Under the pieces are notes generated by a model. That model was not told the DNA's origin and ran no database searches. It saw only the letters and a program-made list of their open reading frames with translations. The translations under genes were made by a program, and so were the position numbers. From Bacteroidia bacterium (GTDB taxonomy: Bacteria; Bacteroidota; Bacteroidia; UKL13-3), in the NCBI GenBank assembly GCA_023151275.1, contig JAKLJI010000024.1:1-49448 (forward strand): DNA of 49,448 nt, in the 5' to 3' direction. Shown piece after piece: positions 18,613 to 49,448 of the stretch; position 1 is the first letter of the stretch, and the number at the start of each line of letters is the position of its first letter.

Positions 18613-19146
18613 TATATACAATCCGCCACTTACTCAATTCACTTAAGAATTGTTGGAATTAACCGCAAATTTGAATCGTATCATTTTTTCGGCTTAACTA
18701 GTTAAACCCAATTTGATTTTTTAAAATTCAGACAGGGAACTAAAAACTCTTCGACAAGTTCAGTTTTGTCACTACGAAGTTTTTAACGAACGAAATTCCA
18801 TGATAACGAATTCAAGCCTTCGTGCCTGAATTACTTCAGTCTGACACAAACCCAATTTTCCCCGGGACTACTACTCGGTCCCGAGGGAAATGGATTTCTA
18901 AGGCATATCTCTTGTCAGCCTAAAAACATCAAAGCCATCCCAAAACCAAAATTTCCCGAAAACCTTGATTCTGCATTTGAACTTCGTTACGAGGTCCAAA
19001 AATCCAACTGAATTGGCTCTTCTTGAGTAAAGCATTATAAACTTTACAGTGCGCAAGAAAACCCAAGCTTACACCCAATTTCAAGGGAATTTTAGCCAGT
19101 AATTGATGGTCAAAAATTTCCGGAATAAAGAAAGTTTTTTTTGAAA
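18613..19146. other. Non-coding stretch with a strong hairpin and a dispersed repeat
   Basis: About 530 bases without a credible gene. A strong hairpin occupies 18857-18890: TTTCCC and CGGGAC pair with GTCCCG and GGGAAA, with one bulged A and a nine-base loop, and no U-run follows. Bases 18952-19130 are copy R1 of an AT-rich repeat also found near 46600. The 13-base word AAAATTTCCsGAA (one mismatch) occurs directly repeated at 18948-18960 and 19113-19125. The remainder (18740-18850) shows only short imperfect repeats. Confidence 0.6.
18952..19130 (+). repeat. AT-rich MITE-like repeat, copy R1 (degenerate)
   Basis: Alignable by eye with 46595-46772 over about 165 bases. Shared words in order include GCATTTGAACTTCGT, CCAAAA, GCAT-AT, CCCAATTTCA and TTCCGG. 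Its terminal inverted repeats are decayed compared with copy R2. Confidence 0.65.
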
Positions 19147-46299: not shown

Positions 46300-46380
46300 C
46301 AGAATAGTCAATATTCAAGCTTCATTTTGGGCGCCCAGGGCCTATAAAGTTTGGTTTCCAATTGCACATGCATACAGGCC

Positions 46381-46520
46381 CTGCCGGGGCATCCGCTTGT
46401 ACTACCCTTTAGGGAAAATCCGCGGCTGTAAGGCTGCTGTCAGGGCTTCCTCCGGTCGCCTGCCCTCAGCCACATCCGCAGGCTTTCCCTAAAGTGCGGT
46501 ACCGCTTCTCCCCCTGGCGC
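46381..46520 (+). repeat. GC-rich structured dispersed repeat, copy B
   Basis: Same order of words as copy A: CTGCCGGGGCATCCG, TTGTACT, GCGGCTGTA, AGGGCTTCCTCC, GGTCGCC (46454-46460), GCGGTACCGC, CTCCCCCTGGCGC. Stems: AGGGAAA/TTTCCCT (46411-46417/46484-46490), GCGG/CCGC, GGCTG/CAGCC (46432-46436/46467-46471), AGGGC/GCCCT (46442-46446/46462-46466). Confidence 0.8.
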
Positions 46521-46594: not shown

Positions 46595-46772
46595 TTTAAC
46601 CCGGATTACGCATTTGAACTTCGTGATGAGGGCCAAAAGGCCAAAGAAATTGGCAGTTTCACGAGCAAGGCATAATGCACCGTTATGGTGAGTGAGGGAA
46701 ACTGAGTTTACGCCCAATTTCACAGGCATTTTGGGCTGTAATAGATGGGCAAATGCGTATTCCGGGTTTAAA
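46595..46772 (+). repeat. AT-rich MITE-like element, copy R2 with terminal inverted repeats
   Basis: About 178 bases bounded by near-perfect inverted repeats: 46595-46615 and 46751-46772, both carrying ACCCGGA and TACGCATTT, differing by one substitution and one indel. The interior aligns with R1 near 18952-19130. Minus-strand open frame 46568-46798 crosses it but has no recognisable product. No transposase is encoded inside. Confidence 0.75.
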
Positions 46773-46860: not shown

Positions 46861-46900
46861 ATTTTAACCCGGAAAATGAATTTGTACTTCATTAATCGGG
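46861..46900 (+). repeat. Truncated left end of the R2-type element (copy R3)
   Basis: TTTTAACCCGGAAAATGAA followed by TTTGTACTTC and CGGGC repeats the first 39 bases of R2 with about ten differences, then diverges. The rest of 46773-47078 shows nothing coding. Confidence 0.6.
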
Positions 46901-47078
46901 CTTTTGTAAAACAAAAATAAACATACAGGTATTGCCGAAAATTTGTAAATTAGATTCTCTAAAGGCTTTTCAATGAAACAGTTTTACCAAAGCCTAATAC
47001 CTTTAATATCTATAAATACAAGGCTTTGGGCTTTGTGAAAACCAGTAAACAAAATTTTAAGCCCTCAGTACATAAAAT

Positions 47079-47518: not shown

Positions 47519-48334
47519 CTATGCAACATATGAGGAGGGAGTTTGATAATTTAGAGCCTGATGAGGCCTGATTTCATTGTATTCTTCAATGAATCCATTT
47601 GTTACCTCTTGAGCATCTTCAATGGTATTAAACACGTAAGCATCCAGTACATCTTCTCTATATGTTCTATTGAACCTTTCAACTATTGCATTCTCCTGCG
47701 GTTTTCCTTTTCTAATTCTACTCCATTCTATGTTGTTCTTAGTAAGCCAACACTGGAAAAGTTTGGAGCGAAATTCTGGACCGTTATCCGTTCGAATACG
47801 CTTTGGTGTTCCATGGCGTTCGATGAGGATATCCAAATATTCAATTACCCGTCTTGCAGGTAAGTTAATTGCAATTTCTATCCCCTTGCATTCACGGTTA
47901 AAGTGGTCAATCACATTCAAGGTTCGGATTCTTCGCCCGCTATTTAGTGAGTCTGACATGAAGTCTATAGCCCATTCTTCATTCTTGGCTAATGGGAGTT
48001 GAATAGGATTCTTAGGATTATCTTTGATTCTGCGTCTGAGCTTTTTACTCAACGAAAATCCCTCCCGCTCATAAACCCTGCGAATCTTGCTAACTCCTAG
48101 TTCCGGATAATCCTTTTGAACTTGTTTAATGACTTTGACCCTTCCTTTTCTAGTAGTGCCAATGGCCTTTTGAATAATCTCCTTTATCCGTTTATCCTTG
48201 ATTGGCATCTTATGCTTATAGTACTTGGTTTTCCTGGAGCACCCTAATAACCTGCACGCCCGAGCATGTGACACTTCCATATAACTTGATAAAACATATG
48301 AAAGGCACTGCTCCTTATCCCCGGGCGTTACCAC
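47519..48334 (-). CDS. IS3-family transposase OrfB (DDE integrase)
   Basis: 271 residues from the GTG at 48334. The HTH_21 region comes first (KGRVKVIKQVQKDYPELGVS), then the integrase core with D in AIDFMSDS, D in RTDNGPEF and E in AIVERFNR, the DDE triad, and the C-terminal FIEEYNEIRPHQAL that is typical of the family. It is read mainly as an OrfAB fusion after slippage on A-AAA-AAG at 48334-48340. The reading frame is undamaged. Confidence 0.93.
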   Translation of the reverse strand: MVTPGDKEQCLSYVLSSYMEVSHARACRLLGCSRKTKYYKHKMPIKDKRIKEIIQKAIGTTRKGRVKVIKQVQKDYPELGVSKIRRVYEREGFSLSKKLRRRIKDNPKNPIQLPLAKNEEWAIDFMSDSLNSGRRIRTLNVIDHFNRECKGIEIAINLPARRVIEYLDILIERHGTPKRIRTDNGPEFRSKLFQCWLTKNNIEWSRIRKGKPQENAIVERFNRTYREDVLDAYVFNTIEDAQEVTNGFIEEYNEIRPHQALNYQTPSSYVA

Positions 48335-48594
48335 TTTTTTGAGTTGATATCTTTAAGAATTTGATTGTCTAATGTTAGCTCGGCTACAGCTCGTTTAAGC
48401 CTAGAATTTTCTTCCTCAAGTTGTTTGAGACGCTTAAGTTCATCTAAAGTCATTCCTGAATACTTCTTCTTCCAATTTTGGAAGGTGGGTTCACTGATAC
48501 CATGTTTGCGGCAGATCTCTGCTACTTTTTGACCTTGTTCTTGTTCATTGAGGATCGCTAGTATCTGAGCCTCCGTGAATCTTGATTTTTTCAT
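48328..48594 (-). CDS. IS3-family OrfA (HTH protein)
   Basis: 88 residues: MKKSRFTEAQILAIL, HTH with ICRKHGISEPTFQNWKKKYSG, and a leucine-zipper tail LKQLEEENSRLKRAVAEL. It binds the element ends and, alone, usually represses transposition. It ends with DINSKKW and overlaps OrfB by seven bases. Confidence 0.93.
   Translation of the reverse strand: MKKSRFTEAQILAILNEQEQGQKVAEICRKHGISEPTFQNWKKKYSGMTLDELKRLKQLEEENSRLKRAVAELTLDNQILKDINSKKW
48334..48340 (-). promoter_or_regulatory. Programmed -1 frameshift site A6G
   Basis: The minus strand reads A-AAA-AAG in the OrfA frame at its last lysines. A -1 slip continues into OrfB as KKVVTPG. This is the usual IS3 slippery heptamer. Confidence 0.85.
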
Positions 48595-48632: not shown

Positions 48633-48827
48633 ATGTCCGAAAAAAACAGCCCAGTTCCCAGTCAAATTCGCCAATTTGTTCGTATCAGGCGAACTGGCAA
48701 GGAAAAAATAAATAAAATTGAAACACAACTATCCGAAACTTTAGATAGAAAATACGGAAAAGAACTCAAACCTTTGAGGTATCTGACATCTCAAGAATAT
48801 GAGCCTTTTCCGCAGAAACAAAAATAA
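48633..48827 (+). CDS. Small hypothetical protein overlapping the IS4-type transposase start
   Basis: 64 residues, basic and charged (SQIRQFVRIRRTGKEKINK, ELKPLRYLT), helical. It overlaps the transposase start by 29 bases in another frame. It may be a small passenger or regulator of the IS4-type element, or the tail of an interrupted gene. No family recognised. Confidence 0.45.
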   Translation: MSEKNSPVPSQIRQFVRIRRTGKEKINKIETQLSETLDRKYGKELKPLRYLTSQEYEPFPQKQK

Positions 48828-49448
48828 TAATAAACCTGTAATTCGTCAGGTTATTGATTTAATTCCACGCTTTCTCATAAAAAAAGCAGTAAGTAAATAT
48901 CAAAGTGATAAGTATTGCCATAAATACAAGACATATGACCAATTAGTAGCCCTATTGTTCGGACAGCTTTGTAAATGCAGCACTTTAGAGGATATTTCGG
49001 TTGGTATTGGTGTTTCAGAAATATTTATTTCAGACCTTGGTTTAGAGCAAAGTCCTGCTAAATCAACTATGAGTGATGGTAACAAGAAACGTAACTGGCA
49101 AGTGTTCGAGCAGTTATTTAATGATTTACTCAAGTACTATGGAAACAGCCTAACCCAATACTCGAACCAAGTGGTAATTGAAGAGGTTAAATCACACACA
49201 ATCCTTATTCGTGACAGTAGCACGATTAGTCTGTGTCTAAGTATGTTCGATTGGGCAAAGTTCCGAACAGCTAAAGGCGGCATTAAAATACATACACAAT
49301 GGGATGAAGCAATGATGCTTCCGAACTTGGTTAATATTACAGAGGCTGCGGTTCATGATAGCAAAGGTTTTGAGCAGGTTGTCTTTGAAAAGGGGACGGT
49401 GATCATTGAAGACAAAGGGTATTGGGACTTTGGAGTAATCCGAGACAG
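48799..49448 (+). CDS. IS4-family transposase with DUF4372 N-terminus (partial, runs off the window)
   Basis: 216 residues without a stop to the window edge. MSLFRRNKNNN and FLIKKAVSKYQSDKYCHKY, then LVALLFGQLCKCSTLEDI form the DUF4372 domain of this Bacteroidota transposase group. The first catalytic Asp lies in IRDSSTISLC and the next block has GGIKIHTQWD; the Glu region would be outside. It begins about 200 bases from the IS3 orfA and points away from it, so two elements are neighbours here. Completeness cannot be judged. Confidence 0.88.
   Translation, partial: MSLFRRNKNNNKPVIRQVIDLIPRFLIKKAVSKYQSDKYCHKYKTYDQLVALLFGQLCKCSTLEDISVGIGVSEIFISDLGLEQSPAKSTMSDGNKKRNWQVFEQLFNDLLKYYGNSLTQYSNQVVIEEVKSHTILIRDSSTISLCLSMFDWAKFRTAKGGIKIHTQWDEAMMLPNLVNITEAAVHDSKGFEQVVFEKGTVIIEDKGYWDFGVIRD

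Follow-up and report, generated by a model that had tools for sequence, protein, structure and literature searches.

We conclude that the 167-bp element at positions 46600 to 46766 of the window (the whole stretch of DNA analysed, 49,448 nucleotides of a Bacteroidia contig) is quite probably a non-autonomous MITE, likely mobilised by an IS1380-type transposase at mostly TTNAA targets, with a compensatorily kept, strand-preferring hairpin that matters for propagation. It represents a new MITE family of a known kind, the unusual part being the conserved, strand-preferring fold of its body. The interior of a MITE is commonly regarded as what remains of a parent transposon; in this family it is the most informative region, with a predicted fold kept across at least 12 families, a preferred strand and no gene. 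The features of the window are as follows.

46595..46599, no strand: left target-site duplication TTTAA, a direct repeat with 46767..46771
46600..46766, + strand: MITE copy, 167 bp, whose + strand is homologous to the better-folding strand of its relatives
46600..46616, + strand: left terminal inverted repeat CCCGGATTACGCATTTG
46671..46687, + strand: apical hairpin, whose loop (46676-46682) hosts many variants common to several young copies
46705..46713, + strand: one-sided 3' bulge AGTTTACGC
46750..46766, - strand: right terminal inverted repeat, reading CCCGGAATACGCATTTG on the - strand
46767..46771, no strand: right target-site duplication TTTAA
18963..19123, + strand: old, degenerate full-length copy (covariance-model match of 67.9 bits, E 4e-13)
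46863..46902, + strand: probable truncated left end of another copy (29/40 matches; best of 40 shuffled windows 26)

The terminal inverted repeats match at 16 of 17 positions (46600-46616 against the reverse complement of 46750-46766), and the copy is palindromic over its length. A transposase gene inside the element is absent, the longest open frames of the window not covering it, which confirms the first-pass annotation of a MITE-like element lacking such a gene and sets its size at 167 bp. The same annotation had described inverted repeats of 21/22 bases with one indel; the repeats are real, but the indel is false, because the direct-repeat TTTAA target duplication had been read as part of the inverted repeat. 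Among 16 exact TTNAA duplications in the 233 kb examined, the central base is identical on both sides and not complementary, and the duplications span 5 bp; the outer five bases are therefore duplicated target rather than palindrome. Allowing up to two mismatches, the 17-mer end occurs 68 times in the genome versus once in the backward-sequence control. The element thus combines the features by which a MITE is recognised, namely terminal inverted repeats, a short body without a transposase gene, a target-site duplication and many dispersed copies.

Three copies had been counted at first, which is an undercount. The proposed search of the genome for further copies returned 73 covariance-model matches (E<=0.001), of which 23 were the opposite strands of others, leaving 50 places and, with two composites giving two places each, about 48 loci. 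A DNA similarity search of the genome gave 50 matches, including fragments and some opposite strands. Within the window, the degenerate full-length relative placed at 18952-19130 proved real, with 71.8% identity to the window copy over 156 bp. The truncated left end reported at 46861-46900 is probable, with its best placement at 46863-46902 instead; the full-length covariance model at E<=1 does not list it.

Scanning 233 kb for end pairs yielded 29 pairs, compared with none in the reversed-sequence control. Twenty were independent elements with identical flanking pentamers, one spanned two neighbours and eight had one pentamer mismatch; 16 of the 20 exact 5-bp duplications were TTNAA. When the 21 ungapped 167-bp copies were compared, 19 carried 2-9 differences from the consensus and the other two 30 and 31, and the family in this genome is therefore a young burst on top of old remains. 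Mean pairwise identity among the 19 young copies was 94.4% (range 90.4-99.4%). One of the young copies, nested at C15:48853-49019, interrupts an older copy within its end, with ATTAT duplicated around the insertion; once rejoined, the flanks of this site match the family end at 34/43 positions, against a maximum of 26 in 2000 shuffles. Two 332-bp composites, on contigs C1 and C8, are 93% identical and carry their own exact duplications (TTTAA and TTAAA), which indicates that the composite inserts as a unit. Size variants of 74, 158, 196 and 205 bp also have exact duplications. These observations, all from one genome, support a MITE family with recent activity, as had been proposed: about 48 loci, near-identical young copies, exact duplications and a nested insertion.

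At this locus no empty site was readable in 20 genomes of the same bacterial family, because the flanks are too diverged and only parts of the left-hand gene are conserved. No match was found by DNA similarity (E<=0.001) in 57 relative genomes, three of them of the same genus; the more sensitive covariance model gave one match in one of these 57, a genome of the same family (G014).

The first relatives were found by end pattern and blastn, without use of structure, and two of them, L121 and L181, share 72% and 71% identity with the window copy along their whole length. A scan with the 17-mer end gave at least 93 stretches, and 11 genomes were taken further; most of the scan stretches, among the matches listed, look like chance matches in unrelated bacteria. 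We then used a covariance model built from a 12-sequence alignment (nine own copies, L121, L181 and L168). Of 395 genomes sampled from the class, 21 gave matches, the present genome among them, corresponding to 13 of 196 genera and 12 families, and several carrier genomes had at least 5-7 matches each when the best 7 per genome were scored. In a sample of the phylum, 7 of 395 genomes matched, five in the class and two in another class, the latter weakly (E 9.6e-7 and 2.0e-5). Carriers include Lunatibacter salilacus, Cyclobacterium plantarum and one Prolixibacteraceae genome. Carriage by phages or plasmids was considered and dropped: the element had no plasmid match, the only phage signal was two hits of one phage at E 0.6, and two motifs had no exact match in viral contigs.

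Two further genomes deserve mention. The Calditrichota genome G058 (M_MetaBat.96; L038, L064, L072) has 520 end-pattern matches versus 3 in the control, and two weak covariance-model matches only, with 150 of 2085 candidates scored. Elements with such ends appear to have undergone a larger burst there, and L185, one of the IS1380-type loci discussed below, sits in this same genome. In Sunxiuqinia dokdonensis DH1 (L053, L075), exact element ends lie three bases short of the ends of contigs, which would fit an assembly broken by a longer repeated element that has such ends; this genome gave no PF13701 match.

To describe the fold of the element body, 30 of 42 best-strand matches were aligned with MAFFT and a structure was predicted from the same alignment with RNAalifold. 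The 12 left out were own copies beyond one (L004, L021, L029), near-duplicates of kept rows (L280, L241, L281, L283, L269, L284) and apparently truncated or divergent sequences (L249, L276, L242). Mean pairwise identity of the 30 rows was 60% (range 42-87%). One common hairpin accommodates them, with 93.1% of 1257 pair cells intact and two-sided changes at 38 of 42 pairs. The covariation score of 0.623 compares with 0.226 after shuffling (0/500 as high) and at most 0.108 when slid; it is to be read with the reservation that most rows were found with a structure-scoring model, that the structure was predicted on the same alignment and that related rows are non-independent. In the sequence-only alignment of 12 (the nine own copies, L121, L181 and L168), two-sided change was seen at 19 of 52 predicted pairs. 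Covariation that exceeds both the shuffled and the slid controls is what is expected of a structured-RNA family, and on these predictions compensatory changes have maintained an imperfect hairpin in the body across no fewer than 12 bacterial families.

Unpaired positions are as well preserved as paired ones: the mean frequency of the commonest letter was 0.724 in 79 unpaired versus 0.711 in 84 paired columns, and 34 unpaired and 39 paired columns reached 0.8. The one-sided, largely unpaired motifs TTCGT.ATGAG and CGTAATAGA recur in distant relatives, and a 3' bulge of 9-10 bases lies at the same place in L121, L181 and L172 as in the window copy. A known RNA family was rejected as the identity of the element, as no curated Rfam 15 model matched over it (23 loci at E<=1; the window at the gathering threshold). 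A sub-threshold match to Flavo-1 RNA in L259 (29.5 bits, gathering score 42; 1655-1795) abuts and slightly overlaps an element copy and is not the element.

The hairpin is predicted to be better formed on one strand. The strand of the best model match folded better in 41 of 42 elements; L260 was reversed by 1.3 kcal/mol, and in L029 the two strands hardly differed. Blastn by itself indicated the same strand for L121, L181 and L168. At the 42 pairs we counted 88 G-T against 21 A-C combinations. Since an A-C combination reads as G-T on the complementary strand, the two counts should be equal if the explanation were purely double-stranded. Because RNAalifold favours G-U, the prediction was repeated with G-U forbidden, which gave 43 G-T versus 17 A-C (rows 17 to 2), and 38 versus 16 (rows 16 to 2) when the structure was predicted from the opposite strand. 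Under the most hostile choice, with G-U allowed and the opposite strand used, the counts were 48 versus 30, with rows only 15 to 9. The family therefore shows the strand specificity of a structured RNA family, and together with the covariation this suggests that a folded single strand, possibly RNA, is under selection while the element spreads.

These counts also bear on whether the fold is a DNA-level by-product, in which template switching or conversion between the arms keeps the two halves of the palindrome alike and the hairpin has no single-stranded function. Such copying would yield compensatory changes without selection, the palindrome extends along the whole element, bacterial MITEs commonly have long stem-loops according to the excerpted text of PMC2229807, and the old copies described below do not keep the fold. 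Copying treats the strands alike, however, yet G-T exceeds A-C (88 to 21, and 43 to 17 without G-U), and arm copying would tend to erase the recurring one-sided motifs and the 3' bulge. We regard a by-product as improbable and favour selection on the folded strand.

To ask when the fold matters, we turned to the variants of the young copies, which share ancestry and are few, so that the following figures are indications only. Variants shared by at least two of the 19 young copies fell in paired positions in 9 of 22 cases, where about 15 were expected, and several of them crowd the apical loop. Private variants were found in paired positions in 21 of 32 cases (about 22 expected). All 19 young copies had a fold more stable than the median of equally mutated consensus sequences, while the two oldest ungapped copies ranked at 0.935 and 0.275, i.e., the fold was kept no better than under random mutation. 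This suggests constraint in the spreading lineages, with none visible after insertion. Together with the lack of a constant gene orientation and of a GC-skew orientation, the variant pattern leads us to infer that the folded strand matters for propagation rather than for a neighbouring host gene.

A fixed orientation to flanking genes was rejected both here (26 versus 25 in 42 resolved loci; 45 of 48 loci examined) and in other genomes (12 versus 21 at 36 loci). An open frame of at least 150 amino acids was overlapped by 6 of 45 rows in this genome and by 2 of 36 elsewhere. A replication-strand preference was likewise discarded, as the flanking GC skew, taken in element orientation, was positive in only 21 of 39 cases. 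Targeting of terminators found a weak excess and was not retained: 6 of 39 sites versus 4 of 86 controls lay within 10 bp of a terminator-like hairpin, and 14 of 39 versus 19 of 86 within 60 bp.

It is conceivable that the element instead serves its host, as an intergenic RNA element for mRNA stability or termination that spread as a MITE and was kept for its use, as proposed for ERIC and Correia. Mostly intergenic copies and a stable, strand-specific hairpin fit this, and RNase-processed MITE transcripts are known (passages of PMC2229807 and PMC10969869). With no constant orientation to flanking genes, private mutations hitting stems at the chance rate, stability lost in two old copies and terminator-like hairpins only weakly enriched where the element inserts, we consider a host-serving role very unlikely, and a role of the folded strand in propagation is preferred.

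The mechanism we propose has two parts. The enzyme that recognises the ends of about 19 bp is most likely a DDE transposase of the IS1380 family, provided from elsewhere, which would insert the element mostly at TTNAA and duplicate 5 bp; the IS1380 identity of this enzyme is deduced from the likeness of the ends. The body would form an imperfect hairpin, better on one strand and kept by compensatory change, and the folded strand would act in propagation, most likely as RNA. Alternatively, it may act as a single-stranded DNA hairpin during replication or transposition. More tentatively, and with less confidence than we would place in its opposite, one may envisage a family of mobile structured RNAs, in which the transposon is itself the gene of a noncoding RNA about 165 nt long, spread on IS1380-type ends across Bacteroidota and perhaps Calditrichota, its conserved strand-specific fold and unpaired motifs acting in its own propagation, e.g., by recruiting the transposase or a host factor. 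If the strand works as RNA or single-stranded DNA, the element would be a minimal transposon selectable for a folded nucleic acid. The many carriers, several of them without a detected transposase, are natural material for testing this, and the repeat family had no Rfam 15 model match in the searches made.

The element is likely mobilised in trans by a transposase of the IS1380 type, because its ends and its 5-bp duplication resemble those of IS1380-family insertion sequences. The consensus end of 30 relatives, about 19 bp, reads CCCGGATTATGCATTAGAA. Around PF13701 matches we collected 26 loci, some of them truncated, and examined the sequence on either side of the gene for a relaxed form of the end. 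L189 is an insertion sequence of 1399 bp end to end, with CCCAAATTACGCAGTTGAAT-type ends showing one difference and an exact 5-bp TTTAA duplication on both sides; it is the one IS having such ends for which an exact duplication was seen. The L190 end CCCAGATTACGCATTAGAA matches the consensus of the relatives at 17 of 19 positions; the pentamers flanking L190, TTTAT and ATAAA, do not form a target duplication. Element-like ends are also present, on at least one side, in L191, L195 and L185, and the form CCC(A/G)(A/G)ATTA(C/T)GCA..(A/T)G is common to L185, L189, L190, L191 and L195. The transposases of L189 and L190 matched NF033539 (NCBIfam IS1380) at 253.8 and 255.8 bits (cut-off 180). The ends of L194 are more distant from the element end form, and other IS1380-type elements have other ends: CCTAAAATCCGCA in L186 and L205, and CCC.AAAATAGCGATTGAC with TCTAT duplicated in L196. 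In the remaining PF13701 loci of the 26, no clear ends of this form were seen.

An autonomous element with the same ends, sought in this genome as the first-pass annotation had advised, was not found there, and neither was an IS1380 transposase: one sub-threshold fragment was recovered, whose best NCBIfam score was for IS4. This IS4-like fragment, at the right end of contig C22, was rejected as a partner, having no such ends nearby, and none of the six PF01609 matches in the genome is tied to element ends, which were checked at the C22 right end only. Among the 20 other carrier genomes only four had an IS1380 transposase, and some of the rest have 10-20 contigs; in the class, 37 of 295 genomes had a match (counting the IS4-like fragment of this genome) and 26 were over the cut-off. 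With 4/20 against 26/295, there is no clear association between carriage of the element and the presence of IS1380. The lack of a detected IS1380 transposase in 16 of 20 other carriers and in this genome would fit a mobiliser other than IS1380, with similar ends. We judge this rather unlikely, as the end form recurs at five IS1380-type loci (L189, L190, L191, L195, L185), in L189 together with an exact TTTAA duplication, and the partner may be lost or absent from fragmented assemblies. IS1380 remains the preferred candidate, its partner gene in this genome possibly lost or missing through assembly.

The covariance model found no hairpin inside IS1380 elements at 24 loci, so that by this test the interior is not IS1380-derived; the one full-length copy that this search returned, in L195, lies beyond the IS end, and L185 gave weak hits. 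Five loci (L185, L189, L190, L191 and L194) carry another short inverted repeat, for instance CTAATGCGTAGCAATAG, a few tens of bases inward from the IS1380 terminus and before the transposase begins; it is perhaps an operator or an extra transposase site.

Among known systems, IS1380 insertion sequences (NF033539/PF13701) resemble the element in end form, with the TTTAA duplication of L189, and differ in being about 1.4 kb long with a transposase, whereas the element has 167 bp and none. As far as the accessible text of PMC2229807 describes them, ERIC/IRU, Correia/NEMIS, RUP and YPAL share with it a length of 100-200 bp, terminal repeats, a target duplication, a mostly intergenic position and a long imperfect hairpin; by the same description they are set apart by other ends and targets, with TA-type termini in several. 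The 5-bp TTNAA target and a body fold conserved over at least 12 families of a class distinguish the present element from those MITEs. The available part of PMC9769881 describes MITECca01 of Cardinium, also of the Bacteroidota, as a MITE with palindromic ends and ISCca4 as parental IS, which, compared by description only, makes it a palindromic-ended MITE of the same phylum. Flavo-1 RNA (RF01705) is also a structured RNA motif of Bacteroidetes, according to the portion of PMC2864571 consulted, and has a different sequence and size (76 positions). PiggyBac, in the excerpts of PMC10813416, has CCC-type end motifs and a TTAA target as in the element, but is eukaryotic with a 4-bp duplication, unlike the 5 bp found here; that study takes IS1380 as outgroup. 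Among the open-licence papers listed on IS1380, MITEs and Bacteroidetes hairpins, titles and abstract openings contained no description of this element family.

The neighbourhood of the window copy holds other mobile sequences. A two-gene transposase with HTH_Tnp_1 (PF01527) and rve domains, which we take to be IS3-like, lies at 47519-48594 on the - strand, 0.75 kb from the MITE. A DDE transposase frame (PF01609) at 48799-49448 on the + strand runs off the contig end. PF01609 matches also occur at either end of C22 and where C5 begins, the one at the C22 right end scoring best as IS4, and because they sit at contig ends an IS4-type element probably breaks the assembly. Finally, a G+C-rich stretch with inverted parts TTTAGGGAAAATCCGCGG ... 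CCGCAGGCTTTCCCTAAAG at about 46376-46520 is possibly another repeat family; a similar GGGGTACCGCTTCCCC motif stands to the left of the copy in L014.
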